A stretch of 64,000 nucleotides of DNA from Fictibacillus halophilus. GTDB lineage: Bacteria > Bacillota > Bacilli > Bacillales > Fictibacillaceae. Position numbers and translations under genes: made by a program. Position 1 is the stretch's first letter. Every line of letters starts with the position of its first letter. The stretch is from positions 2,666,001 through 2,730,000 of the forward strand of contig NZ_JAEACF010000001.1 of the NCBI RefSeq assembly GCF_016401385.1, in the 5' to 3' direction. This document shows, piece by piece, positions 1,645 through 55,693 of this stretch. The notes under the pieces were generated by a model. That model was not told where the DNA came from, ran no database searches, and worked only from the letters and a program-made list of their open reading frames with translations.

Positions 1645-1672
1645 TTAAGAAATGCACCCGATTGCGGAATAA
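1645..1672 (-). repeat. Cassette site R1, short form
   Basis: Core GCACCCG at 1654-1660 followed by ATTGCGGAATAA (plus-strand reading). It lies 4 nt beyond the stop codon of the first Nudix gene and is the outermost site of the array seen here. Confidence 0.7.
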
Positions 1673-1675
1673 ATC

Positions 1676-2077
1676 CTAGTTAAATATATGTATGTTACTT
1701 GTTACATTATTAAAGGCATCTTTAATTCTTTTGATATTCCATGGGTGAATTTGTGATGGTAATTCTGTTCTTTCAAAAAAACCTATCCTTTCAATTTCGC
1801 TATTCGGTTCCCAACTGTCTTTACCAACTATAACTACTTTGAATAAAAGAACTAAATCATCCTTTGAAGGAGAGGAATAAATAGCTATTAAATTGTTTAT
1901 TTCAACGATATAGCCTGTCTCCTCATAAACTTCTCTTTTTACTCCTTCTATTGGTGATTCATTCTTTTCAAGATGTCCACCTGGTAATGTCCAATTCCCT
2001 GATCCGTATTTTATTTTAGTTAACAATATTCTTTCATTTTCATCAAAGATTGCTGCAAATACGCCAACCTTTGGCAT
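1676..2077 (-). CDS. Nudix hydrolase (cassette gene 1)
   Basis: Start chosen at ATG 2077, where GGAGG precedes by 9 nt; this gives 133 residues beginning MPKVGVFAAIFDENERILL. The Nudix box is complete: GHLEKNESPIEGVKREVYEE then TGY, fitting G-x5-E-x7-REUxEExGU. Such enzymes cleave nucleoside diphosphate-linked compounds using Mg2+ held by the glutamates. The substrate cannot be told from sequence. The stop codon is 4 nt from site R1, and site R2 lies upstream, so the gene is one single-gene unit of the array. Confidence 0.85.
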   Translation of the reverse strand: MPKVGVFAAIFDENERILLTKIKYGSGNWTLPGGHLEKNESPIEGVKREVYEETGYIVEINNLIAIYSSPSKDDLVLLFKVVIVGKDSWEPNSEIERIGFFERTELPSQIHPWNIKRIKDAFNNVTSNIHIFN

Positions 2078-2120
2078 GCTTTTAACCTCCAATTTAAAGA
2101 TTAATATAATCAAAAAAAAG

Positions 2121-2166
2121 TGATGCATTTCTCCTTATTAAAAAAATGCACCTGTTTATAGAATAA
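2121..2166 (-). repeat. Cassette site R2, hairpin form
   Basis: Inverted repeat TGCATTT / AAATGCA with a 12-nt loop, then a degenerate core GCACCTG (2148-2154) and TTTATAGAATAA. It separates the Nudix gene from the small membrane protein gene. Confidence 0.6.
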
Positions 2167-2225
2167 AGATACTTTATGTATGTTTATGCTTATTGTTAGT
2201 TTCACAATAAGTTAGGGTTAAAACC

Positions 2226-2402
2226 TTATTCTTTGTTCGATAAATCAAATAGACTAGTTGAAATCCCATCTAAAATATCACTTATTACGGATAGAATTTG
2301 TAGAATCTGGCTCAACCATAATGCTATAAAAGCAGTACTAATGGCTATTACTATCAGGGAAAGAATTTTCAACACCTCTAATGGTTTATCTTCGTTTTTC
2401 AT
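2226..2402 (-). CDS. Small single-span membrane protein (cassette gene 2)
   Basis: A 58-residue frame from ATG 2402 to TAA 2226, with GGAG 7 nt before the start. It begins MKNEDKPLEVLKILSLIVIA and has one strong hydrophobic helix (about residues 11-32), then an acidic, serine-rich tail ending SNKE. No family is recognised. Its place between two array sites and its proper ribosome site are the grounds for calling it real. It may be a membrane peptide of the toxin or immunity kind, but nothing shows that directly. Confidence 0.55.
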   Translation of the reverse strand: MKNEDKPLEVLKILSLIVIAISTAFIALWLSQILQILSVISDILDGISTSLFDLSNKE

Positions 2403-2444
2403 TCATTTACTCCTTTTTCCAATTTCATAACAGTTAATGATTCA

Positions 2445-2493
2445 ACAAAAAATGCACTTCTCCTCCTTGAAGAAATGCACCCGATTGCAGAAG
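2445..2493 (-). repeat. Cassette site R3, hairpin form
   Basis: TGCACTTC and GAAGAAATGCA form an imperfect stem, followed by core GCACCCG at 2477-2483 and ATTGCAGAAG. Likeness to the second DJ-1 cassette starts at this core, at 44432. Confidence 0.7.
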
Positions 2494-2496
2494 ATA

Positions 2497-3036
2497 TTAT
2501 TCTTTATACCAGTTTTCATCAAATGTAAGATTCAGTGTATTGCCGAACAATGTTCCAAATCTAACGAACGCTCTTCCTCTTGCAGTAATTAGATTCCCAT
2601 CTTGTACTACTAGAGAATCACAATAATTTTCTTTTTCAAAAACACCAGTCATCTCACGATTTTCTTCAGTCATACCAATCGTATACTTTTTCCCTTTTAA
2701 AACCCCTGCTTTTGCTAGAAGATATGGAGAACTTGAAATACTCGCAATCACAGTTACTTTATCTTGGATTTGTTGTATAAACTCTATTAACTTATTTTCA
2801 TCATCTATCGAAAATATATCCATGCATCCCGGTAACAAGAGACTATCAATTTCATTATCGTTAAGATCATCAATAGTCGCATCAGGCACACAAGTTAATC
2901 CGGATTCCCCTCTAATCGGCTGATCATTAACTCCTACTGTGATGATAGGTTTATCTGATTGCATTAAAATCGATATAGCTACACTTAATTCATACTCACT
3001 AAATTGAGGATATAGTAATACTACGGTTTTCTTCAA
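2497..3036 (-). CDS. DJ-1/PfpI family protein (cassette gene 3, copy 1)
   Basis: I prefer the TTG start at 3036 because GAGG stands 9 nt before it; a longer frame from TTG 3066 has no such site. The product is about 179 residues, beginning LKKTVVLLYPQFSEYELSVA. The flavodoxin-like core and the nucleophile-elbow region are visible, but the position usually held by the reactive cysteine (AIC..P) reads ASISSSP, a serine. Catalysis like that of PfpI or DJ-1 is therefore doubtful, and a sensor or chaperone role is possible. A frameshifted second copy lies at 44.45-45.02 kb. The stop codon is 3 nt from site R3. Confidence 0.8.
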   Translation of the reverse strand: MKKTVVLLYPQFSEYELSVAISILMQSDKPIITVGVNDQPIRGESGLTCVPDATIDDLNDNEIDSLLLPGCMDIFSIDDENKLIEFIQQIQDKVTVIASISSSPYLLAKAGVLKGKKYTIGMTEENREMTGVFEKENYCDSLVVQDGNLITARGRAFVRFGTLFGNTLNLTFDENWYKE

Positions 3037-3087
3037 TATTAAATACCTCGTTTCAAAATTATGCAAAATAAAAACTGGTTGTTATAA

Positions 3088-3111
3088 AAACGCACCCGAT
3101 TGCGGAATAAC
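3088..3111 (-). repeat. Cassette site R4, short form
   Basis: Core GCACCCG at 3092-3098 followed by ATTGCGGAATAA. The acetyltransferase stop codon overlaps the end of the site. This core is the right-hand limit of the duplicated DJ-1 unit. Confidence 0.7.
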
Positions 3112-3635
3112 TATTCTAACTTAATCTTTGGGGTATATGCCATTAGCATAAATTCATTATCTAGATCCTTGATTCTATTAAATCCACATTTTATATAACA
3201 AGCTATCGCTCTTTCATTTGTTTTCTTCACGTCTAAAATAATGCTAGCTGAGGATTCAATTTTATTTATATATTCTAGAATGAGTCCTATTATTAATCTA
3301 CCTATACCTTTTCCCCATAAGTGGGTTTCCCCAATGAATTGATCAATTCCAAAGGCTAATTGATTCGCTTTATATCCGTACTCTTCAAGTTTTTCTTTAC
3401 TCACCTTATAGAATTGTATGTAACCAATTGAATTACCTTTATATTCAACTATGCACGGAGTAACATAATGGTTTCCATTTATTCTTGGCTCATACTTTTT
3501 AATCACCATCTCTAAATCAGAAGAAGGTTCTTCATAGTATTTCAAAACTTTCTCATCCGATAACCATTTAGCCATAATTTTGTAATCATTAACTGACATA
3601 AGTCTTATTAAAAGATTATCTTTAGATATCATCAT
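3111..3635 (-). CDS. GNAT acetyltransferase resembling AAC(6') aminoglycoside acetyltransferases (cassette gene 4)
   Basis: Start at ATG 3635 (or the adjacent ATG 3632), just after AAGGGG. The product is about 174 residues. The GNAT fold is visible: an N-terminal RLMSVNDYKIMAKWLSDEKV stretch, the central GIDQFIGETHLWGKGIGRLI, whose GKGIG holds the acetyl-CoA phosphates, and the late NERAIACYIKCGFNRI. The GIDQ...GKG spacing and the early residues are those I remember from AAC(6')-Ib-type enzymes, so aminoglycoside modification is plausible but untested; peptide or protein acetylation is the alternative. It sits between sites R4 and R5, as resistance genes do in integron cassettes. Confidence 0.8.
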   Translation of the reverse strand: MMISKDNLLIRLMSVNDYKIMAKWLSDEKVLKYYEEPSSDLEMVIKKYEPRINGNHYVTPCIVEYKGNSIGYIQFYKVSKEKLEEYGYKANQLAFGIDQFIGETHLWGKGIGRLIIGLILEYINKIESSASIILDVKKTNERAIACYIKCGFNRIKDLDNEFMLMAYTPKIKLE

Positions 3636-3649
3636 TGAACCCCTTCTTA

Positions 3650-3675
3650 AAGAAATGCACCCGATTGTTGAAGAC
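3650..3675 (-). repeat. Cassette site R5, short form
   Basis: Core GCACCCG at 3657-3663 followed by ATTGTTGAAG. It lies between the small membrane protein stop (3683) and the acetyltransferase start (3635). Confidence 0.7.
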
Positions 3676-3682
3676 TCATCTT

Positions 3683-3946
3683 TTACTGATTCCAAAATAG
3701 CCACGCTGCAAATGGTAAACCCACTGAATAAAAAATATTAATTGAATTTCCTATATAACCAACCACCTTCAGTGTTCCACTGTTGCTTTTATAAGCCGCA
3801 ACCAGTCCCACTATTGGAAGAACCCATCCACCTAAAATCACTATTGGAAAAGACATTCCAATTAAACCTAAGCTATCAAAGTCATAAACAAAAACAGTCA
3901 TAGAGAACAAGAACATAACAACTGATGCAATCCCGTATTTATTCAT
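3683..3946 (-). CDS. Small membrane protein, about three helices (cassette gene 5)
   Basis: Start at ATG 3946 with AGGAGAG 4 nt before it; the product is 87 residues beginning MNKYGIASVVMFLFSMTVFV. Three hydrophobic segments (about residues 5-22, 27-48, 62-82) leave almost no soluble part. The family is not recognised. It ends 8 nt from site R5 and begins downstream of site R6, so it is one array unit. Confidence 0.65.
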   Translation of the reverse strand: MNKYGIASVVMFLFSMTVFVYDFDSLGLIGMSFPIVILGGWVLPIVGLVAAYKSNSGTLKVVGYIGNSINIFYSVGLPFAAWLFWNQ

Positions 3947-3975
3947 ATTTCTCTCCTGGTTGATTTGAAGATAGA

Positions 3976-4020
3976 ATAGCACTTTTCTTGTTAAAGAAAT
4001 GCACGCGATTGTAGAATAAT
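3976..4020 (-). repeat. Cassette site R6
   Basis: Variant core GCACGCG at 4001-4007 followed by ATTGTAGAATAAT, preceded by an imperfect inverted repeat around GCACTTTTCTT. It lies 15 nt beyond the stop of the next gene. Confidence 0.6.
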
Positions 4021-4034
4021 TAATCATACTTATT

Positions 4035-4283
4035 TTAAAAATCGTCCATATTCCAGTTCCATTTCGCATTGATAGTTTCTAGAAACCCCTTGATTTGTTC
4101 CTTTGACAAATCCTTTGCCCCAGTCACCTTATTAGCATAAGATTGTAGAATCCAAGTTTCACCGTAAGGTCTATCTGGTGCTTTCCATCTCACACCAAAC
4201 CTATAATCCTTTCCATCAATTTTGACTTCAACTGATAATATTTCCTTATGTAGTATAAAATCTTTCATTTCCAATACTCTCAA
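4035..4283 (-). CDS. Small soluble protein of unknown function (cassette gene 6)
   Basis: An 82-codon frame. The start is uncertain: AAGGGG is 1 nt from TTG 4283 and 10 nt from TTG 4274, and the first ATG (4268) is too far away, so TTG 4274 fits best. The sequence is polar, with KIDGKDYRFGVRWKAPDRPY and a tryptophan-rich end (NAKWNWNMDDF). I recognise no family. It occupies a single unit between sites R6 and R7. Confidence 0.6.
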   Translation of the reverse strand: MRVLEMKDFILHKEILSVEVKIDGKDYRFGVRWKAPDRPYGETWILQSYANKVTGAKDLSKEQIKGFLETINAKWNWNMDDF

Positions 4284-4297
4284 GCCCCTTTGTAAAC

Positions 4298-4377
4298 TAT
4301 CTTGTTCATTTGTTTAATAAATTCATTAAAAAGTGCGTTAATCCTTCTTGGATTAACGCACCCGATTGTTGAATAAT
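4298..4377 (-). repeat. Cassette site R7, full form with perfect 12-bp hairpin
   Basis: The best copy of the site. On the plus strand it holds a first box TTTGTTTAATAA (4309-4320), a hairpin GTGCGTTAATCC-TTCTT-GGATTAACGCAC (4333-4361), core GCACCCG (4358-4364) and a second box ATTGTTGAATAA. Read on the minus strand, the hairpin is followed by TTTTT and could also end transcription of the gene at 4409-4747. Confidence 0.85.
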
Positions 4378-4408
4378 GAAACAAAGTTATTTAAGATAAG
4401 ATTCGATT

Positions 4409-4744
4409 CTATAATACCTGAATGTCATCTATTGTAATCTGTGCATTTTCACCGTAGAAAGTCACCTCACATTGAAGTGTTAAATCATTAACTTCTTCTT
4501 CATCCCACAAATCAAAGTCCAAAGAATATTTCAGATTATCCTCAATCTCATAAACTTCTACCTCTTGATATATATGATTGGGTGGGTAAACTAAAAGTAT
4601 CCCATAATCATTAATCGCTTCCTCTAACATTTTAATATCTAATCTTCCTATTCTTTTAGTTTCTTGAATTTCTAGATAATTTTTTTCAACAATATCTTTA
4701 ACTAACTCTCTTAATAAACGAATTATTATTTGCTTGTTATCCAT
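4409..4744 (-). CDS. DUF7668-like small acidic protein (cassette gene 7)
   Basis: Start at ATG 4744 (ATG 4747 is adjacent), after AGAGGA. About 111 residues. The N-terminal half is helical (LLRELVKDIVEKNYLEIQE, then RIGRL). The C-terminal half has the phrase SLDFDLWDEEEVNDLTLQ and ends ITIDDIQVL, both of which I associate with DUF7668 proteins; this is a memory match, not a search. Function is unknown. Similar proteins are often found as lone small genes near mobile DNA. The gene lies between sites R7 and R8. Confidence 0.7.
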   Translation of the reverse strand: MDNKQIIIRLLRELVKDIVEKNYLEIQETKRIGRLDIKMLEEAINDYGILLVYPPNHIYQEVEVYEIEDNLKYSLDFDLWDEEEVNDLTLQCEVTFYGENAQITIDDIQVL

Positions 4745-4792
4745 CATATTCCTCTTTCTATTAACTGCATTGTAGATACATTAACACTTCTC

Positions 4793-4822
4793 TTTTTTAA
4801 CAGAAACGCATCCGTTTGTTAA
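4793..4822 (-). repeat. Cassette site R8, degenerate
   Basis: Core variant GCATCCG at 4808-4814 followed by TTTGTTAAAG. It lies 2 nt beyond the stop of the zinc-ribbon gene. Confidence 0.5.
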
Positions 4823-4824
4823 AG

Positions 4825-5499
4825 TTATGTACTCTGTATTTCGGTCTTAATAACCAGACATTTTTTACATAAATAATAGTAAATGTTCATCTCACCGATT
4901 TGAAAAACCACAACTGAAATAAGTTCAGTATCACCAAGATCTTGTGTTATTGAAGCAATGTACATCATTTCACATTTGCATCTGGGACACTCTAAATCAT
5001 TAGGAACTTCCTCATACAAGGGGGCACCTAACAATCTACATACATATTCAGAACCAAATAAATCAAATGCAGCATCATAATTGTCTTCATTTATTGGAAC
5101 ATCTTCATCTTTCATTTCAATTAATTTCACACTGGTTTCTGGAAGTGGTACAGGTAGTTGATCTTCCTCATCTTGAGTCCAATCTTCAGTATTCTCTTGA
5201 CTCAATACTTGTGTTGTTCTCCCCTCATTACTTAATTGAAAATATTGAGGCTCCCACACCATCGCACAGTTTAGGCAAGAAACTAATGGTAACATACTAA
5301 TTCCATCCGCTTTTAATACTGAAAGCCTTGGATCTTTCAAATCAAAACAAAATATTAGGTGCATTTTCTTTCCGCACAGTTTACAAACAGGTACCTCGCA
5401 ATCTTGACCACCAAAATGATGTTTATACCCATCGATTCCTTCAATTACTCTATATCCTTTTATGTCTCTCCAGTGTTCTCCAAAAGGTTTCTGTTTCAT
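4825..5499 (-). CDS. Cysteine-rich protein with two zinc-ribbon-like halves (cassette gene 8)
   Basis: ATG 5499 is preceded by GAGG at 6 nt; the GTG at 5511 lies inside that site and is less likely. About 224 residues. Four CxxC pairs are visible: CKLC, CLNC, CPRC and CKKC, arranged as two pairs of knuckles, each half able to hold one zinc. Between them is an acidic linker rich in glutamate. I cannot name the family; some DUF1963/YwqG-like proteins have a similar look. It fills one unit between sites R8 and R9. Confidence 0.7.
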   Translation of the reverse strand: MKQKPFGEHWRDIKGYRVIEGIDGYKHHFGGQDCEVPVCKLCGKKMHLIFCFDLKDPRLSVLKADGISMLPLVSCLNCAMVWEPQYFQLSNEGRTTQVLSQENTEDWTQDEEDQLPVPLPETSVKLIEMKDEDVPINEDNYDAAFDLFGSEYVCRLLGAPLYEEVPNDLECPRCKCEMMYIASITQDLGDTELISVVVFQIGEMNIYYYLCKKCLVIKTEIQST

Positions 5500-5543
5500 A
5501 AATATCCTCACTTATTAAAGTTAGCTTAATTTTATACAAGGTT

Positions 5544-5625
5544 CCAATCCTGCTCATATGTTTAATAAGTTCCTTAAAAAATGCGTTAATCCTTCTTGGA
5601 TTAACGCACCCGTTAGCTTAATAAG
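5544..5625 (-). repeat. Cassette site R9, full form
   Basis: First box CCTGCTCATATGTTTAATAAG, hairpin TGCGTTAATCC-TTCTT-GGATTAACGCA (5582-5608), core GCACCCG (5606-5612), second box TTAGCTTAATAAG. The stop codon of the second Nudix gene lies inside the second box. Confidence 0.85.
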
Positions 5626-6070
5626 CACTTCTAATATATTCATCTAATATTGGTAAATCAGGTGGACTAATGTTTGGGGGAAGTTCATTAAACTTAAAAA
5701 ATTTTAAATCCTGAACTTCACTTTCTTCTCTTCTCAATACACCTTCATAATCCCTACACACAAAGGCAGACACAACATTATATACTTCATCTCCGTGAGG
5801 ATATTTATAGTAAAAATCTTGTCCTGAAAAGACATTGAATAAAATTAAATTATTTGCGTTCAGTCCCGTCTCTTCATATAATTCCCTTTTAGCTACTTGT
5901 TCTAATGTTTCTCCAATCTCCAAAGAACCACCAGCTAATCCCCAACAATTATTGTCTTTACGAAGTTGTAATAATAATTCATTTTTGCTATTTACAAGTA
6001 TTACACACGCACCAGCCATAATTAGAGGGCGACTACCCACTACTTTTCTTAAATCCATAATGTATCCCAT
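5618..6070 (-). CDS. Nudix hydrolase (cassette gene 9)
   Basis: ATG 6070 stands 5 nt after GGAGG and gives 150 residues beginning MGYIMDLRKVVGSRPLIMAG. The Nudix box is complete (GGSLEIGETLEQVAKRELYE then ETGL). The N-terminal MGYIxxLRxxVGxRPLI is typical of a common Bacillus Nudix group close to ADP-ribose and MutT-like enzymes; the substrate is not assignable. The two Nudix genes of the array are not close copies of each other. The stop codon is inside site R9. Confidence 0.85.
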   Translation of the reverse strand: MGYIMDLRKVVGSRPLIMAGACVILVNSKNELLLQLRKDNNCWGLAGGSLEIGETLEQVAKRELYEETGLNANNLILFNVFSGQDFYYKYPHGDEVYNVVSAFVCRDYEGVLRREESEVQDLKFFKFNELPPNISPPDLPILDEYIRSAY

Positions 6071-6094
6071 TAGATCCTCCAATAGTGTTTATTC

Positions 6095-6175
6095 CACAAT
6101 CCTGCTCGTTTGTCTAATTAATTCAATTAAAAAGTGCGCTATTCCTTCCTGGATCAACGCACCCGATTGTTGATT
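6095..6175 (-). repeat. Cassette site R10, full form
   Basis: First box CCTGCTCGTTTGTCTAATTA, imperfect hairpin GTGCGCTATTCC / GGATCAACGCAC, core GCACCCG (6159-6165), then ATTGTTGATTT. It abuts the stop codon of the PAP2 gene. Confidence 0.8.
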
Positions 6176-6796
6176 TTAATAATTTCTTGTCTTGCTACCT
6201 TTTGTCTTTCTAAATGGCTGAAACAGTTTCCCTTCGTACTTTTCATAAACATTTAATATCTTTTTTGTCCCATTGAGTCTAGGCACTATTATATAGACGT
6301 TAATTGCAACTGCAAAGCTTAAGATCATCCCAGCTATAACATCAAAAGGATAGTGTACGCCTACCCAAATACGGGAAATGCCTACAAGCAATGCTAACAG
6401 TATCCAAAATATCCACCATCCTCTTTTGAACAGCCAAAAAGAAAAACAATAGGAGAAAAACAGGATAGTGTGATCACTTGGAAAGGAATTATCTTTTTCT
6501 TTCACGATTAACTTGTTTACATCTGATAATTCTACAAAAGGCTGATAATTCGAATGAAATACCCCTGAAACCTTCCCTAATATAAAAGCACAAGTAAAAG
6601 TAATTGTTGCACAGAATATCATTATTCTGCTTTCCTTATTCCGTGTAAACCAAATACAGATAACACTGATTGCAAGTAAAAACACCATATATTCTGCAAG
6701 AAAGGTGAAGATTATATTTAATTGTTCGTGCTCTTTTCCTAAATCATTTACTAATCTAAATAAGCCTATATTAACTTCTGAGAAATTCAAACCCAT
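6176..6796 (-). CDS. PAP2 phosphatase, BcrC-like undecaprenyl-diphosphatase (cassette gene 10)
   Basis: 206 residues with five to six hydrophobic segments. PAP2 motifs two and three are clear: FPSDHT and SRIWVGVHYPFDV, which supply the catalytic histidines. In motif one the usual arginine-proline reads QPF, which I recall in some BcrC relatives. BcrC recycles undecaprenyl diphosphate in the membrane and gives bacitracin resistance when abundant, so this could act as a resistance cassette; that role is inferred. The gene lies between sites R10 and R11. Confidence 0.8.
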   Translation of the reverse strand: MGLNFSEVNIGLFRLVNDLGKEHEQLNIIFTFLAEYMVFLLAISVICIWFTRNKESRIMIFCATITFTCAFILGKVSGVFHSNYQPFVELSDVNKLIVKEKDNSFPSDHTILFFSYCFSFWLFKRGWWIFWILLALLVGISRIWVGVHYPFDVIAGMILSFAVAINVYIIVPRLNGTKKILNVYEKYEGKLFQPFRKTKGSKTRNY

Positions 6797-6907
6797 TCAC
6801 CATCCAAGTTCTTTTTCTTTTCATCATAGAAAAGAACCTAGATAGCATCCATCGATTCAGCTTACAATTTTTGGTTCGTTGTGACAATATTGTAAGAATG
6901 TCATTAT

Positions 6908-6928
6908 CTCCAATTGTACCCGTTTGTT
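6908..6928 (-). repeat. Cassette site R11, degenerate
   Basis: GTACCCG at 6915-6921 followed by TTTGTTGTATATAA. It lies about 27 nt beyond the stop of the reductase pseudogene. Confidence 0.45.
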
Positions 6929-6954
6929 GTATATAACGAATTTAAAACAATTCC

Positions 6955-7785
6955 TTAAACTGTATGAAACTTAGATCTAAGGAATTGTTGAGCTTTTTGA
7001 GTATTTAGGGATGTATCAAGAGATAGATAAGGGAACTTTTCTTTTGAAATTTTAATTGGAAAGAGAAGACTATTATCCCATCCAAGCTGTTTCAATCGCT
7101 TTTTAAAGAACGAATAGTAGCTTTCTTTATGTATGGGTCCAGCATGCAAAATACCATTAAATTCAATTTTAGACAACTCAAGAATTGCACTTGATAAATC
7201 ATTTACGTTTACAAAAGTTCTATACACATTTGCCCATGCCTCGATTGGCTTATTTTCTTTTATTTTCTCGATTAACTGTATAGTTCGTTTTTCAATAATA
7301 TGATTCTCATTATCAGCATATAAAGGTCCAGTTCGAAGTATCACGTGATTTGGATGTCTACTAAGAATTAAGTTTTCACCAGCATATTTTCCATTTACAT
7401 AACTAGCTAAGGCTGCTTCGTTAGGTAACGTTCCAATAGAATCGGATTCTTTATAACCTCGAATCCCTTCAACAAAAACAGCATCCGTCGATATGAAAAT
7501 AAGTTTAGTGTCACTCTCTATCTATGATAATAAATTTGCGAGCCCTAAATTATTTAATTGGGTTTCTTCTTCAAAATTCATAAGAGACCAGATTATTACT
7601 TCAGGATTTATTTTCCTAAGTGCACCTCTTATTGATTGTTTGTTTATAACATCGACTTGCACAATATTAGATTTCTCTTGTTGAAAACGTGAGGTACCAA
7701 ACACTGTTAGATTTTTGTTCTCTGAAGCCAATTGGATAAAATTCGAGCCCAAAAAACCTGTCGCTCCTAATACAAGTATTCTCAT
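6955..7785 (-). pseudogene. RmlD-like sugar-nucleotide reductase, broken by one in-frame TAG (cassette gene 11)
   Basis: One frame of about 277 codons runs from ATG 7785 (after AAGGAAG) to the stop at 6955 but is cut by TAG at 7522-7524. Before it is a Rossmann start with GATGFLG; after it come LIFISTDAVFVEG, ASYVNGKYAGE (YxxxK catalytic pair) and a C-terminal substrate domain. The family is dTDP-4-dehydrorhamnose reductase-like extended SDRs. The stop sits where a glutamine (CAG) would fit, so one C-to-T change explains it. Unless the stop is read through, two useless fragments result. Confidence 0.8.
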
Positions 7786-7834
7786 CAACTAAACTTCCTT
7801 TATTAAGTGTTTTTTATGTTTTTCTTCCTCAAAC

Positions 7835-7868
7835 TCCTATTACTTCAACGCACCCGATTGTTAAATAA
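7835..7868 (-). repeat. Cassette site R12, short form
   Basis: Core GCACCCG at 7850-7856 followed by ATTGTTAAATAA, upstream of the reductase pseudogene and downstream of the next, decayed unit. Confidence 0.65.
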
Positions 7869-7913
7869 CTGATTATCAGTTTGTGTAGTTTTTAATAATC
7901 TTAGAGAATAGTT

Positions 7914-8084
7914 TCATTCCTGTTTTATGTCCACAACTAAGATATCAAAAAGTTTATTGTCTATATAGACCAAGAAAGCCCATTTCCCCGACTCGTTTAG
8001 CAGCACATTTGATGGTATATGTGTAATTGTCCAGATGCGAAAATAATCCGACCATCTGCCGTCAGGTTTCTGAAAGAGAACGAC
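7914..8084 (-). pseudogene. Remnant of an unknown gene, start missing
   Basis: An open stretch of about 56 codons without a start codon reads coherently (FQKPDGRWSDYFRIWTI, then WAFLVYIDNKLFDILVVDIK) and ends at TGA 7914-7916. It looks like the C-terminal part of a small soluble protein whose beginning has been lost by frameshift. No family is recognised. It shares the R12 unit with the small cysteine protein upstream. Confidence 0.35.
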
Positions 8085-8138
8085 TCACAAATCAAAATTT
8101 CACTTCTTCCACTGTGGCCTTGCTCGAATTGTTCATCA

Positions 8139-8309
8139 TTACTTATTAGCGTAGTACTTGTTATACACTCTCATTTCACAATCATCGTTATCTATGCATA
8201 ACCAAAGTTGTATCTTTTTTTCGTTCCCGTCACCTTCGTCAGTAGTTACCGTCTTATACCCAATCTCTTCCTCGTTTGTGTTTCCGCACTCATAACATTC
8301 TCTAGCCAT
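8139..8309 (-). CDS. Small four-cysteine protein, 56 residues
   Basis: ATG 8309 to TAA 8139, with GGAG 10 nt before the start. It begins MARECYECGNTNEEEIGYKT and holds CYEC near the N-terminus and two later cysteines (WLC and DDC), a spacing fit for one zinc. Too short for family assignment; zinc-ribbon peptides of this kind are common in Bacillus accessory DNA. It probably shared a cassette with the remnant downstream. Confidence 0.5.
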   Translation of the reverse strand: MARECYECGNTNEEEIGYKTVTTDEGDGNEKKIQLWLCIDNDDCEMRVYNKYYANK

Positions 8310-8380
8310 TTCATTCACTCTCCTATTCTTTTTTTAGATTAAACCAATATTTATTATTATAATAACATAATTATCCAAAT

Positions 8381-8505
8381 CGCATTTAATCCTTCTTAAA
8401 GTGACCTGCATCGTTAGTTTAAGTACATTTCTTCACAATCTCTTCCTAATTCACCATATATCATTAATTTCTTTATTCAACAATCCTGCTCGTTTGTTCA
8501 ATAAG
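8381..8505 (-). repeat. Cassette site R13, decayed, with a separate first box
   Basis: TTTAATCCTTCTTAAAGTG at about 8384 is the hairpin sequence with its second arm lost, followed by GCATCGTTAGTTTAAG. A well-kept first box CCTGCTCGTTTGTTCAATAA stands apart at 8484-8504, about 60 nt beyond the next stop codon. Confidence 0.5.
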
Positions 8506-8565
8506 ATTACTTCTCTTTCTAGTAAAACAGTCTTGTAGTTTAGTGATTATAAGTTAATCGCAACT

Positions 8566-9155
8566 TCATATTTCAATTTCAAAACCTGTTGGTTTTTGGT
8601 AAGGCACCTTACATTCTTTAAAAACCATTTTTAACTTAGACAAGTCATCAGGTAATGCTGGGGATACAGTATATGTATAAGATTTATGACCTCTAGATCC
8701 TCCCCCACCATCAGTTTGGCATTCATAATCTGTTTCGCCATCTTTAATTGAAAGAGTAAAAAAGTTATGTTTGGGAAAAGCATTCTCATCAATTTCCCTA
8801 TCAATGTTAAAATGAACGACACTAGCATTTTCAAACTGACGCACAAAAGTTACCGCATAAAACACATTGTCTTTTTCAAATGATTTAATATTGGTATATT
8901 CTTAATAAATCCCTTTGGCTCTATAAGAGGTTTATACATGTCTTCACTTAAAAAATGTGCAAATATACTATTTAAGAAATCTTCATAAAGATCATTTTCT
9001 TCACACCAAGCTAAAATATGCTGCTTTGTTGGGAAACCTGGATTATTATTTGATAGTACTTTCCGTTGTTTAATTAGTTCACAGATTTGTTGATTGGTGG
9101 CTTCTATTCGTTCGTTATAAAAATCTGTTGGTGGTTCAAATGGCATTCGTTTCAT
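8566..9155 (-). pseudogene. Unknown protein gene split by a frameshift (cassette gene 13)
   Basis: ATG 9155 stands 8 nt after GGAGG. The first frame runs from MKRMPFEPPTDFYNERIEAT to about residue 90 and then ends in a foreign tail; the second frame continues from about 8890 (KSFEKDNVFYAVTFVRQFEN) to the stop at 8566. Joined, they give about 195 residues, a length that fits one gene. The second half has a glycine stretch (TDGGGGSRGHKSYTYTV). No family is recognised. A single frameshift near 8890 is the simplest reading; two overlapping genes are less likely. Confidence 0.55.
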
Positions 9156-9284
9156 ATTCATTTCCTCCAATATTCTATATTCCAACTTACTTGAAGTTAA
9201 GAGAATAAAAACTACCAATTCCTATTATTAAGATTACCATAATTTTGAATTTAAGACTTAGTAAAACTATATCTAATTTCAATT

Positions 9285-9314
9285 ACTCAACAATCTGGCC
9301 CGTTTGTTGAATAA
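9285..9314 (-). repeat. Cassette site R14, last box before core DNA
   Basis: CAATCTGGCCCGTTTGTTGAATAAC matches the first-box consensus. Conserved core chromosome (minJ) begins about 120 nt further on, so this may mark the edge of the array. Confidence 0.6.
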
Positions 9315-9437: not shown

Positions 9438-10637
9438 TCAATCCCCAACAGCAGCATTCCGATCCACTACATCATGGACGAGCAGTACACCAAGCTGGTG
9501 GTGTTCGTTTTGGTAGAGTGATCCTTGAACGAATCGAATCTCACCATTCAGATTAAGAACTTCAAGTTTGCAATATGCAGCGTTGATTTGGAGGGCTCGG
9601 TATAAACTTGATTCTTGTGAAAGTGTGACTCCATTTACTTTCACAATGACTTCGCCAATCTTTAATCCCATCTTTGCAGCAGGTGTTCCTGGCACTACTG
9701 AAAGAATCATAACTCCCTGATCTCTTGGTACAAAGTGCGATGGTCTCGTGTCATCACGTTGGCTCGTTACGAGTGTAATGAGCTCTCGTCCTGCAAGACC
9801 GGCTGCGATTGCTATAGCAATTAATAGCGGTAAATTATAAAAATGACCCACTGCTGCAATACCAGTTACGATAAATCCTAAAATCAAAACTTGTCTGCCT
9901 AGATGTTTAATCGCTTCTTCTGGCAGTGTATGTGTGACTAACTGGCGATATCCAATGGCAAACGGTACAAGGAAGAATGAGAATCCTATTGCGCCCATCG
10001 GAAACAATGGCCACCAATCTAATACAGGAATAGAGCCTACAGGAAGAACTAAAAACTGTGGAACAATCCAAAATCTCGTAGCTTCATGTGCTCCAATATA
10101 ATGACCCCGTTTACCTTTGAACAGTCGAGGCGAAGTGCGATCTGCACCTTTCCATATGACCAGTATTCCTTCTTGAATTAAAAGAACACCAATAATGACC
10201 GCCAATGAATCAAGCGGCGTTTTCTGAACATCCACAATCCATTGATCTACAAAAGAAATGCCAAGTTGAAATTTCGGAAGCAACAGACCGACGACTGCCG
10301 ATAAACTTACAGCGTATGCAGGGTTCATAAACCTTGTTTTAAACGTTAAGCCTAAAGCAAGATAAACGACCCCAATTAAGGCAATCATCCCAAGCGGCAA
10401 TGTAATACCAGCTGCCACAAAGATTACAGAACCGATGAGTCCAATCAGAATGCCTGGCAGCAATGAAAATATTAAATTATCAATAACAGGGTGCACGCGC
10501 ACTTTAAATTCTTTTCTCTCTCGTTTCACACGTTTTAATCCAATTAAGAAAGCAACAAGAATAAAACCGTAAAAAAGCGGGTGTAAAAAAAGCAGCAGCA
10601 TGCCCTGAAGTAATTCTTTCACAAAGGTGTCTGTCAT
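9438..10637 (-). CDS. minJ: MinJ-like division topology protein (membrane plus PDZ)
   Basis: 399 residues. Several hydrophobic segments fill residues 1-290; the remainder is a PDZ domain (DQGVMILSVVPGTPAAKMGL, then IGEVIVKVNGV). Length, layout and position next to ctpB match B. subtilis MinJ (YvjD), which links DivIVA to MinD at the poles and septum. The ATG start overlaps the stop of the small DUF4083 gene by 4 nt, so the two are probably coupled in translation. B. subtilis has swrA in this neighbourhood; I see none here. Confidence 0.85.
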   Translation of the reverse strand: MTDTFVKELLQGMLLLFLHPLFYGFILVAFLIGLKRVKRERKEFKVRVHPVIDNLIFSLLPGILIGLIGSVIFVAAGITLPLGMIALIGVVYLALGLTFKTRFMNPAYAVSLSAVVGLLLPKFQLGISFVDQWIVDVQKTPLDSLAVIIGVLLIQEGILVIWKGADRTSPRLFKGKRGHYIGAHEATRFWIVPQFLVLPVGSIPVLDWWPLFPMGAIGFSFFLVPFAIGYRQLVTHTLPEEAIKHLGRQVLILGFIVTGIAAVGHFYNLPLLIAIAIAAGLAGRELITLVTSQRDDTRPSHFVPRDQGVMILSVVPGTPAAKMGLKIGEVIVKVNGVTLSQESSLYRALQINAAYCKLEVLNLNGEIRFVQGSLYQNEHHQLGVLLVHDVVDRNAAVGD

Positions 10638-10813: not shown

Positions 10814-10943
10814 TTCGTCTACCCCTTTTAACATGACAAAGGATTTTATCTCTCAGATCGTTTAATTTTCTGTTTCATTTAATACCCACCATAGAAATTA
10901 TTCAAGGATTTTACTTGTTTTTCGTTAAGAACTTCTATGAATA

Positions 10944-11075
10944 GTTGATTGGAGCGCAAGGTGCGAGACTCCTGCGGGACAGGCCGGCAGGTGAGACACT
11001 TATACGTGAAACGTACGAATGTGGCTCACCGCCTGCCCCGCGGAAAGCGAGCAACCTGGAGCGGAAATCAACCTC
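10944..11075. repeat. 132-bp palindromic intergenic repeat, copy 1
   Basis: GC-rich element in the 350-bp gap between the DUF4083 gene and ctpB. Its ends are inverted (GTTGATT / AATCAAC) and inner parts also pair (GGTGAG / CTCACC, GCAGG / CCTGC). Copy 2 at 28225-28356 is nearly identical over the whole length. Similar GC-rich elements containing GACTCCTGCGGGA are familiar to me from many Bacillaceae intergenic regions. Confidence 0.8.
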
Positions 11076-11111
11076 ACACAAGAGGCTCTTAAAACATCGA
11101 AGCTTCACCTA

Positions 11112-11147
11112 AAAAAAATCCGTAGAGAATAATTTCCTCTACGGATA
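11112..11147 (-). terminator. Rho-independent terminator of ctpB
   Basis: On the minus strand ATCCGTAGAG and CTCTACGGAT pair across a short AT-rich loop and are followed by seven or more T residues. Confidence 0.85.
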
Positions 11148-28120: not shown

Positions 28121-28224
28121 TTTTATTTCATTTTTTGTTGTTTGTGTTGGATGGTTTATTAATTGAAGCTTAATTATATTCTCAAATCACTAAAAAGAAT
28201 TTTTGTTTTTAATACCCTCGCCAA

Positions 28225-28356
28225 GTTGATTAGAGCGGAAGGTGCGAGACTCCTGCGGGACAGGCCGGCAGGTGAGACACTTATACGTGAAACGTACGAA
28301 TGTGGCTCACCGCCTGCCCCGCGGAAAGCGAAGCACCTGGAGCGCAGATCAACCTC
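28225..28356. repeat. 132-bp palindromic intergenic repeat, copy 2
   Basis: Nearly identical to the copy at 10944-11075, with a handful of differences near both ends. It lies just downstream of prfB, where a terminator would be expected, and may fold into a long stem in RNA. Confidence 0.8.
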
Positions 28357-28396
28357 TCTCAAAAACCTCGAAGCCTAACCCAACAAAAAGGATTTT

Positions 28397-38430: not shown

Positions 38431-38462
38431 AAAAAAACAGGCTCTAAAGAGAACCTGTTTTC
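38431..38462 (-). terminator. Terminator of the first cold-shock gene
   Basis: AAACAGGTTCTC and GAGCCTGTTT pair imperfectly on the minus strand, followed by a run of T. Confidence 0.85.
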
Positions 38463-38474
38463 ATATAACGAAGC

Positions 38475-38675
38475 TTATGCTTTTTGAACGTTAGCAGCTT
38501 GAGCGCCACGAGCACCTTGCTCAACTTCGAAAGTTACTTTTTGACCTTCGTCTAAAGATTTGAAACCATCAGTTTGGATAGCTGAGAAATGTACGAATAC
38601 ATCGTCTCCGTTTTCGCGCTCGATGAATCCGAAACCTTTTTCTGCGTTAAACCATTTTACTGTACCTTGTTCCAT
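38475..38675 (-). CDS. Cold-shock protein (CspB/CspD type)
   Basis: 66 residues: [20 protein letters not shown] with RNA-binding motifs KGFGFIE (RNP1) and VFVHFSAI (RNP2), ending AANVQKA. It is an RNA chaperone with a single cold-shock domain. GGAGGC precedes ATG 38675. About 240 nt upstream are free and could hold the cold-responsive leader usual for such genes. Confidence 0.95.
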
Positions 38676-38860
38676 GTTTGTTGCCTCCTAGTGCGTTACC
38701 ACACGATATATTGCTACTCTTGCCCAAAGTATTGCTAAAGAAGAAAAGTCGAAACTCATACACTCTTTTACGCCGAACAAAAATAATCTATACCCATCAT
38801 AACAGTGATTGCGTTATGTTGCAAACGAATCATTCATAATAAGAAATATTTTCTAAAAAT

Positions 38861-42433: not shown

Positions 42434-42655
42434 TCAATTTACTTCTGGGTATCCGATGTCTGAAAAAGAGAGTTTGTTTTCAGCTAAATAATCAAGCAGC
42501 GTCTTTGCATTGGCTCGGTACGCTCGCTTTGTATGTTCGGAGAACTCTTTACCTTTTACAAAAACGCGCGCAAAAAAGAACATCTCGATAAAATCCCGTT
42601 CGCTCGCTTCTCTCAAGTTGAAATTTCGATCTTCATCTAAAAAGTTCTTATTTTT
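42434..42655 (-). pseudogene. N-terminal fragment of a tyrosine-recombinase-like integrase
   Basis: The frame reads FLDEDRNFNLREASERDFIE, then KEFSEHTKRAYRANAKTLLD and YLAENKLSFSDIGYPEV before a stop. The SEHTKRAYRANAKTLLDYL stretch is the helix pair of the N-terminal core-binding domain of phage-type integrases and Xer proteins. The catalytic domain (R..HxxR..Y) is absent. No good start is seen. It is the only recombinase-like text of this type in the window. Confidence 0.5.
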
Positions 42656-44373: not shown

Positions 44374-44447
44374 ACCTGCTAGTTTGTTTAATAGATTCAT
44401 TAAAAAGTGCGTTAATCCTTCTTGGATCAACGCACCCGATTGCAGAA
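44374..44447 (-). repeat. Cassette site S1, full form (second array)
   Basis: First box CCTGCTAGTTTGTTTAATAG, hairpin TGCGTTAATCC-TTCTT-GGATCAACGCA, core GCACCCG (44432-44438) and ATTGCAGAAG. Likeness to the first DJ-1 cassette begins exactly at this core. Confidence 0.85.
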
Positions 44448-44451
44448 GATA

Positions 44452-45020
44452 TTATTCTTTATACCAGCTTTCATCAAATATAAGATTCAGTGTATTGCCG
44501 AACAATGTTCCAAATCTAATGAACGCTCTTCCTTTTGGAGTAATTATATTCCTATCTTGTACTACTAGAGAATCACAATAATTTTCTTTTTCAAAAACAC
44601 CAGTCATCAATCGGTTTTCTTCAGTCATACCAATAGTATACTTTTTCCCTTTTAAACCCCTGCTTTTGCTAGAAGATAAGAAGAACTTGAAATACTCGCA
44701 ATCACAGTTACTTTATTGTGAATTTGTTGTATAAACTCTATTAACTTATTTTCATCATCTAGCGAAAATATATCCATGCATCCCGGTAATAAGAGACTAT
44801 CTATTTCATTATCGTTAAGATCATCAATAGTAGTATCAGGCACACAAGTTAATCCGGATTCTCCTCTAATCGGTCGATCATTAACTCCTACTGTGATGAT
44901 AGGTTTATTTGATTGCATTAATATCGATATAGCTACAATTAATTCATACTCACTAAATTGAGGATATAGTAATACTACCGTTTTCTTGAATATTAAATAC
45001 CTCGTTTCAAAATTATGCAA
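44452..45020 (-). pseudogene. DJ-1/PfpI family gene, frameshifted second copy
   Basis: A near copy of the gene at 2497-3036. One A is missing from an A run near 44655, which breaks the frame after YLLAKAGV; the rest (KKYTIGMTEENRLMTGVFEK) continues in another frame to TAA 44452. The TTG that is the likely start of copy 1 is TTC here, so the start is lost too. The serine at the nucleophile position is shared. The cassette has clearly decayed after duplication. Confidence 0.85.
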
Positions 45021-45043
45021 AATAAAAAAACTGGTTGTTATAA

Positions 45044-45067
45044 AAACGCACCCGTTAGTTCAATAAG
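45044..45067 (-). repeat. Cassette site S2
   Basis: Core GCACCCG at 45048-45054 followed by TTAGTTCAATAAGG. Compared with R4, sequence matches up to CCCG and then differs, marking the right limit of the DJ-1 unit. Confidence 0.75.
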
Positions 45068-46281: not shown

Positions 46282-46893
46282 TTGATGAAAAAACGAGAGG
46301 TTGTTATTGAATTCTACTTAATAAGTCTAAATGAGCATTTCTAAATACAATAATCACCATATGTGAACCGATGACAGGTACCCTAAGCTACTTGTAACTC
46401 ATTTTGATTTGTTCCAGTGGCGTGCTGTCTGTTGTTGCAGCCTCAAACATGTTTCTACAAGTAGGGGGTGGACAGTTTAGTTCACGGAAAATTGTCCAAC
46501 GCACCCGTACGTCCTACTGCTACTGATAATATTAAATCCTATAAAAAACCAGTAAAAACTGATTTACCTTATAATACGAAAGCACCCGTTAGCCATCCAT
46601 GCAGCACAAAATCAGTGCTGCACCACAGAGAATGAAAATGTTTAGGAAGTATCAATACTGATACTGACCTTAATCCAGTCTACCATAATCCATAGACTTA
46701 TTTATGCTCTCCTCTTTTTTAAACGATTAGGTAGGGGTCTTCTTAAGTATTGTCTTTTTTTTTTCTTGAAAATTTCATGGTAGTTTAATAAGAACAGCGA
46801 CACTTATTAAACAATAGCGCCCGATTGTGGAGTATAAATAAACCCATTCTAAAAAAAACGCATTGTTAATTAACAGTACGGTTTTTTAAAATT
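46282..46893. other. Gene-poor stretch with stray cassette cores and a palindrome
   Basis: About 600 nt. GCACCCG cores at 46501-46507 (S3), 46582-46588 (S4, followed by TTAG) and a variant GCGCCCG at 46817-46823 (S5, followed by ATTGTGGAGTA) stand without intact genes between them. TGCAGCAC / GTGCTGCA forms a perfect 8-bp inverted repeat near 46600. It reads like array units whose cargo has been deleted. Confidence 0.5.
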
Positions 46894-55532: not shown

Positions 55533-55630
55533 GATGGGTTGGTTTCGCGGACTGGCAATCTTTATCCTATTTTTAGAATCGAAGACCCATATCTTTGCGT
55601 CCTTGGCTTTCACCAAGTTTGCCCATCACC
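55533..55630 (-). promoter_or_regulatory. c-di-GMP-I (GEMM) riboswitch upstream of the GH114 hydrolase gene
   Basis: On the minus strand: P1 GATGGG (55627-55622) pairs with CCCATC (55538-55533). Within lie GGCAAACTTGG, a stem CTTGG-TGAAAG-CCAAG with a GAAA-type loop, then GGACGCAAAG, the hallmarks of the GEMM aptamer. Directly after, CCCTCG pairs with CGGGGG, which is the ribosome site of the gene and is followed by AATTTTT, so it can act as a sequestering hairpin or a terminator. Aptamer folding and this hairpin are close enough to exclude one another. Confidence 0.88.
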
Positions 55631-55693
55631 ACAGTATTAAATTAATTATTTCCATCTTATAGGTTTTGAATTCAGAAAACAATAGCTATCCGT

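Follow-up and report, generated by a model that had tools for sequence, protein, structure and literature searches.

The 64,000 nucleotides of Fictibacillus halophilus DNA analysed here (assembly GCF_016401385.1, contig NZ_JAEACF010000001.1, forward strand, positions 2,666,001 to 2,730,000; referred to as the window, and its genome as G000) carry an array of small genes, each accompanied by a copy of a short recurrent core site. This array probably belongs to an integron-like system of Bacillales and is made up of mobile cassettes with one gene each. Evidence comes from features that can be read in the sequence: the site itself, its orientation, its placement at gene ends, the boundaries of the units, the turnover of cassettes between species at a single place of the chromosome, and the linkage with a recombinase gene. 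From these we infer binding, cleavage position, circular intermediates, promoters and present activity in the following terms. A Xer-like recombinase would bind both 13-nt arms of each core and cut at the border between arm and spacer (C^GGG). Recombination of two cores of the same orientation would yield one cassette circle, composed of GGGTGC, arm 2, often a terminator hairpin, the gene, and arm 1, and this circle would be inserted at another core. The window array would be an orphan that was moved in the past or in trans. With moderate confidence, it is further proposed that the Bacillales own an order-wide gene-capture platform, which would have arisen from a Xer-like recombinase independently of IntI integrons. 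Its cores would act as double strands, the spacer would decide between partners (GGGTGC in Fictibacillus, GGGGGC in Peribacillus, GGGCGC or GGGAGC elsewhere, and GGGCCA at the head), and many cassettes would bring their own transcription stop. If true, an integron-like system with dozens to more than 100 sites per genome would account for a large part of the turnover of accessory genes in these bacilli, and would represent a second, independent case of a Xer-like recombinase turned gene-shuffling platform.

Core sites in the window and in other bacilli

The 32-nt profile used for scoring was derived from 186 sites with at most two mismatches to TTATTCAACAAWCGGGTGC and reads TTATTCAACAAWC-GGGTGC-RTTTCTTNAAGAA, that is, two inverted 13-nt arms, the second being a weaker inverted copy of the first, around an asymmetric 6-nt spacer. 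By its sequence, the site is built like the simple cores of tyrosine recombinases, for instance dif, for which PMC5357621 gives 11-bp half-sites and a 6-bp centre. At a threshold of 12 bits, 484 distinct places were recorded in 64 loci, mostly selected for having sites or recombinase, versus none in the reversed sequence (an alternative count of 525 takes palindromes on both strands). Within their 13-6-13 layout, the arms hold integron-type 7-mers, ATTCAAC fitting RYYYAAC and GTTGAAT fitting GTTRRRY. The original prediction, made from the window alone, had stated that such arms are lacking in the usual arrangement; the 7-mers are in fact present, in a different arrangement. With the spacer left unscored, its positions 1-3 are G in 87-91% of 492 main-strand sites (the main strand itself having been picked with the full profile), and positions 4-6 are mixed. 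The spacer type varies by lineage: GGGTGC is found in Fictibacillus, GGGGGC in Peribacillus frigoritolerans F-D2 (32 of 79 sites), GGGAGC in Alkalihalobacillus CinArs1 (9 of 10 sites), and GGGCGC in Neobacillus vireti (5 of 13 sites), which is consistent with a requirement for matching spacers. A conserved first half and a free second half of the spacer might also fit a single-strand exchange of the kind that PMC5357621 describes for VGJ phage at dif1.

In the window, the array runs on the minus strand from 9314 down to 1641 and comprises 12 cassette cores and a head core, all of them intergenic. The 12 sites originally listed as strong are real and lie on one strand: their scores range from 11.9 to 45.4 bits, with 11 of them at or above the threshold, and all 12 asymmetric cores are oriented on the minus strand. 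Their chance origin is excluded because pattern counts far exceed those in shuffled sequence, the pattern TTATTCAACAATCSKGNBCG giving 13 window matches at up to 3 mismatches (shuffle mean 0.12), a second site pattern 8 (0.00) and a third 16 (0.09). Read from its head, the array begins with a palindromic core at 9283-9314 (minus; arms TTATTCAACAAAC and GATTGTTGAGTAA, spacer GGGCCA) and a palindromic second-type core at 8473-8504 (minus; spacer GAGCAG on minus; 14.7 bits on minus, 20.2 on plus). The cassette cores, all on the minus strand, follow at 7837-7868 (spacer GGGTGC), 6903-6934 (the weakest at 11.9 bits, GGGTAC), and 6146-6177 (GGGTGC, then a hairpin and T-run). The last of these starts a composite whose palindromic second core, at 6089-6120 (spacer GAGCAG on minus), reaches the threshold on the plus strand only. 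Further cores are found at 5593-5624 (GGGTGC, hairpin downstream), 4795-4826 (GGATGC), 4345-4376 (GGGTGC, with a stem GTGCGTTAATCC/GGATTAACGCAC and a T-run after it), 3988-4019 (GCGTGC), 3644-3675 (GGGTGC), 3079-3110 and 2464-2495 (both GGGTGC, the left and right ends of a DJ-1 cassette, the latter with a terminator-like hairpin at 2450-2482), 2135-2166 (AGGTGC, with a terminator-like hairpin at 2122-2152), and 1641-1672 (GGGTGC). The palindromic cores at 6089, 8473, and 9283 are without clear direction. Two weak sites had also been proposed: the one at 9300 is the head core with its palindromic arms, and the one at 8408 is not supported (best score -18 bits), with the palindromic core mentioned above lying at 8473-8504.

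The array extends beyond the window start, where a 19-bit site lies immediately outside. Three further window cores are located beyond the stretch first noted, at 44419-44450, 45035-45066, and 46804-46835; the last is a solitary strong core (29.3 bits on minus, spacer GGGCGC) 1.7 kb from a second DJ-1 cassette. An Rfam search gave no match within the window array.

Gene ends, exchanged units and turnover at one place

The position of sites relative to genes was scored in 59 loci with at least three sites, in which 562 main-strand sites were set against points drawn at random from the same arrays, leaving out 29 minority-strand places. Open reading frames (ORFs) of at least 80 aa contain 20 of the 562 sites versus 65% of the random points. 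From the last same-strand stop codon to the crossover, the median distance is 56.5 nt (330 for random points), and a same-strand stop lies within -40 to 60 nt at 252 of 554 sites (11% at random). Array direction is largely uniform, with 475 of 562 ORFs on the site strand, and neighbouring sites are a median of 706 nt apart (472 intervals under 4 kb). After the crossover, a terminator-like hairpin with a T-run occurs at 281 of 562 sites, compared to 19 of 562 in shuffled sequence; the 75 nt ahead of the site contain one in 77 of 559 cases. In the window array, a terminator scan returned 7 against 2.8 expected, two of them at cores. In gene orientation, a unit reads GGGTGC...gene...TTATTCAACAATC. 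Accordingly, the core straddles the cassette boundary, and the hairpin is part of the following cassette, at its 5′ end. The original prediction let each gene end at its site, which agrees with the placement near stop codons and has to be corrected as to the unit boundary. As half of the cassettes open with a terminator-like hairpin, many would be expected to be transcribed separately, each from its own promoter, and the hairpins at cassette starts weigh against promoterless cassettes read from a common Pc.

Exchange of whole units is illustrated by the DJ-1 cassette, which is present twice in the window (2434-3098 and 44388-45054) at 93% identity. Identity runs from CGGGTGC to the next core, and the neighbours are unlike on either side; the second copy (minus strand) has a broken reading frame and is bounded by the cores at 44419-44450 and 45035-45066. 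In species-level and within-genome comparisons, 66 of 210 similar segments inside arrays have their left end within 20 nt of a crossover (shifted sites: mean 11.7, largest 24), 63 their right end (mean 8.7, largest 14), and 16 both ends (mean 0.1, largest 2). Four pairs chosen from this list were compared letter by letter: breaks fall at C|GGG in the genome pairs G015/G008, G004/G014, and G001/G003, and are less clean at both ends in G004/G009. The cassette-array logic of the original prediction is supported by sites that respect gene ends, by whole units in different contexts, and by breaks at the site. That the sites are nothing more than a family of mobile terminators or dispersed repeats settling after genes is very unlikely. 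Similar palindromic repeats are scattered in bacilli, and the hairpin after half of the sites would suit such a family, but it would account neither for inverted arms with an asymmetric spacer, one main orientation and clustering at one place, nor for exchange boundaries at the core rather than at the hairpin, nor for the recombinase linkage described below.

The array occupies the same chromosomal place across the genus. A ctpB/PDZ neighbour, represented in the window by the PDZ-domain gene at 9438-10637 (minus) that adjoins the array head, is present in 18 of 18 genus genomes. The place was read in 17 of them (without G017; the G003 locus is interrupted by a contig end), and 13 of the 17 have an array with a head core beside the PDZ gene; in G004, G007, G012, and G016, no head core reaches the threshold at this place. 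Among the 13, the head spacer is GGGCCA in 10, fits GG[GT][CT]CA in 12, and is AGGGCA in G010. Twelve aligned heads are alike before the core and unlike after it, even in species with 92-93% flank identity, and close species share the same neighbour and right flank with almost wholly different cassettes. The number of cassettes ranges from only one or two in G013 to about 19 in G015. Of the window array genes, only the DJ-1 gene, the Nudix genes, and a 260-aa gene at 793-1575 have relatives in the other compared loci. A chromosomal hotspot that gains genes by homologous recombination in its flanks, with the sites as remnants, would likewise show a place conserved in the genus; such a hotspot is extremely improbable, as it would leave unexplained the units ending at the core in unrelated places and the arrays elsewhere in the genome. 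The head site was also considered as a fixed attI and rejected, since a cassette starting with GGGCCA is found inside an array of G001 besides the head of the G003 locus. As the same cassette opens with GGGCCA in both, the first cassette must contribute the spacer together with the right arm, and only the left arm can be platform.

A Xer-like recombinase linked to the arrays

A Xer-like tyrosine recombinase family of about 280 aa is encoded in or beside many arrays. When the protein of genome G005 was used as query, 36 of 149 genomes (the window genome being among the 149) gave matches at E 1e-45 or better, some of them to distant or broken members. Family members lie in or beside arrays in G005, G010, G014 (a fragment), and Peribacillus G114. 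A collection scan yielded 495 loci, the best 80 of which are, by their names, from Bacillales except for one metagenome-assembled genome named only Bacillota. Among these best 80, 70 loci have at least two distinct sites within the stretch read (481 places versus 8 in reversed sequence), and 64 have a site within 1.5 kb. Of the loci that encode other tyrosine recombinases, 1 of 17 in relatives and 0 of 8 in the window genome have a site this close; of 18 control loci scored in relatives, one (L060) was dropped because it is itself the family member of G010. A recombinase gene next to arrays, which the original prediction had suggested looking for, is thus present at many of them; in the window genome, no family member was found at E 1e-45. 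Members with at least 70% identity to the query (53 loci) mostly point in the direction of the sites (304 same versus 140 opposite matches, with palindromes on both strands), and those with 63-69% identity (27 loci) mostly face away (39 same, 134 opposite). In one group, the recombinase gene sits in the array like a cassette. In many loci, the start of the recombinase gene is preceded at about 60-160 nt by a site or arm resembling the core, with low scores in the opposite-facing group, and two related Peribacillus plasmids have, by annotation, nearly the same genes around the recombinase.

In a phylogenetic tree, the family and its relatives from viral contigs stand apart from other tyrosine recombinases (100/99 support); the outer branches of the tree are long. 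R138, K165, H230, R233, H256, and Y265, which we take to be the tyrosine recombinase catalytic set, are invariant in 14 members. The nearest relatives of solved structure are XerD (3e-41), a XerC-like protein, and XerA, with IntI4 at 1e-19. Two members scanned with the XerA model NF040815 score 214 and 210, just under the cut-off of 220. With the IntI model TIGR02249, two members score 87 and 91 bits against a cut-off of 265, and no protein in the 15 genomes searched exceeds it.

The linked recombinase might also be a passenger, the modules being moved by the host dimer-resolution recombinases XerC/XerD (CodV/RipX in bacilli) as in Acinetobacter pdif. The dif build of the core would suit these enzymes, and site-rich genomes such as G001 are without a linked recombinase and possess XerC/XerD-like genes. 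This alternative is nevertheless unlikely in view of the close association of sites with the dedicated recombinase as opposed to other loci, and of the shared direction of most modules of an array; the core arms are, presumably, also unlike those of B. subtilis dif.

A true integron, with an IntI and folded single-stranded attC sites diverged past recognition, has very little probability. The group of 63-69% identity faces away from its sites like intI, and, as attC is made up of two simple sites, a parallel may be drawn to composites with two cores: an additional arm GATTGTTGAATAA is present at 69 of 388 sites 45-94 nt on, mainly at 61-65 or 74-78, versus 1 in shuffles. More regular composites are found on plasmid CP053689, consisting of a core TGATGC, a hairpin and T-run, and a core TGGCAG about 60-70 nt on. 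However, a single folded hairpin requires the distal arm, which is missing from most of the 388 sites, and the IntI model scores lie far below the cut-off. Folded as single DNA strands, four CP053689 composites reach z-scores of -3.0 to -5.0 relative to shuffles, mostly as separate hairpins, and four window sites reach -6.5, -3.7, -1.9, and -1.6. The plasmid itself (CP053689.1) is filed as Arthrobacter citreus and carries a very regular array with a recombinase of an otherwise Bacillales family; the organism name may be wrong.

Several observations weigh against the interpretation as mobile cassettes with a dedicated recombinase. Among the shared segments, 194 of 210 are without a core break at both ends, a good part of them being the recombinase genes themselves. 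A search for A-B versus A-X-B arrangements in species-level comparisons returned 19 candidates, mostly caused by the similarity of the sites to each other, and no clean case. On the opposite strand lie 87 of the 562 ORFs, and a promoter scan showed no excess (32 versus 38.7). Fewer than two recognisable sites are present at 10 of the best 80 of 495 recombinase loci, and 11 relatives on viral contigs (50-57% identity) have 0 to 4 weak arm matches each. At E 1e-45, the family recombinase is missing from the site-rich genomes G000 (the window), G001 (the site-richest, with 124 sites at 2 mismatches), G004, G009, and G015. It therefore seems that arrays outlive the enzyme or that another enzyme serves them, and that the window array is an orphan.

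Other, larger tyrosine recombinases, singly or in groups, are encoded near array ends in three of these genomes without the family recombinase, G004 (locus L284, 12354-17000), G015 (L285, 9706), and G009 (L286, 2195-4200). The window genome encodes four tandem Xer-like tyrosine recombinases of 279, 296, 277, and 295 aa, forming two related pairs (L017, 8246-11731; G000:C1:2808246-2811731). They were rejected as the array enzyme: they lie about 133 kb from the array with no site in the surrounding 20 kb, have a close copy in 0 of 34 other genomes searched, and fall outside the family in the tree. In the window, about 2 kb from the second DJ-1 cassette, a 60-aa ORF at 42434-42616 has a weak, sub-cut-off resemblance (E 0.003) to the phage integrase N-terminal domain and may be a recombinase remnant.

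Relation to known systems and cassette cargo

Integrons and clusters of attC sites lacking integron integrases (CALIN) resemble the present system in several respects: the small genes of an array are unrelated and mostly point the same way, every gene has its short site, some arrays have a tyrosine recombinase next to them and others elsewhere have none, and the chromosomal place is conserved. In contrast to integrons, the recombinase described here scores far under the IntI model, and the core is a 13-6-13 site of double-stranded type. Furthermore, the cassette boundary lies in the left core, so that hairpin and terminator are 5′ of the gene, and one group has its recombinase gene within the array, at the position of a cassette. 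According to PMC8138268, integron integrases form a subgroup whose catalytic domain carries a specific insertion. PMC9024848 describes integrons as very rare in Firmicutes, with one complete case in Limnochorda pilosa and a few CALIN. The system would work like an integron, yet, judged by its recombinase, it is not a member of the integron family. A second comparison concerns the gene modules between dif-like cores with a 6-nt centre in Acinetobacter. These pdif modules, moved by host XerC/XerD, have cores of alternating orientation, a trait not found in the window array, where all 12 asymmetric cores lie on the minus strand. In the Bacillales, by contrast, a dedicated recombinase is linked to the arrays, the asymmetric cores are directly oriented, and the arrays are chromosomal and comprise up to dozens of single genes. 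Finally, XerS/difSL, XerH/difH, and XerA share with the present family the arrangement of one Xer-like recombinase close to its core. Such single-recombinase systems serve chromosome dimer resolution at one site (PMC5357621), whereas many sites per genome, one per gene, are found here. No description of such a system was met in the open-access literature searched, a scope that excludes preprints and most subscription papers; within it, the earlier suggestion that this kind of array is undescribed for Bacillaceae holds.

The cargo of the window array is unrelated from cassette to cassette, as originally noted. Following the array on the minus strand from its head, a 122-aa gene of the first cassette (8850-9218, without a Pfam match) is followed by a broken epimerase/SDR gene (6955-7788, as two ORFs at 7522-7788 and 6955-7344), a PAP2-family gene (6176-6796), a Nudix gene (5618-6082), a 228-aa gene (4825-5511) without a Pfam match, a DUF7668 gene (4409-4747), and an 82-aa gene (4035-4283), again without a Pfam match. 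Next come a GNAT gene (3111-3632), whose ORF opens at 3704 past the neighbouring site and whose start is interpreted as lying near 3632, the DJ-1/PfpI gene (2497-3066), and a second Nudix gene (1676-2128). Among 132 cassette proteins of eight genomes, 87 Pfam families were matched at 1e-4; GNAT (8) and Nudix (6) are the commonest, and the rest, among the matches listed (the best 25 of 87), have 1-3 members each. At 1e-5, 27 defence models match these proteins; among the matches listed (the best 25 of 27), six proteins match PDC-S07 and two match mad2, and AbiH, oligonucleotide cyclases, and LmuA are each matched by one protein. A few small cassette genes have defence-like domains (AbiH, nucleotide cyclase), and the system would offer a way to annotate many small orphan genes.

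Elsewhere in the window, Rfam matches were obtained, both on the minus strand, for a cspA thermoregulator (38431-38788) and a c-di-GMP-I riboswitch (55543-55633). A dispersed repeat of about 140-175 nt is present at 10943-11118 and 28224-28389 (86% identity), with many more copies in the genomes of the genus.

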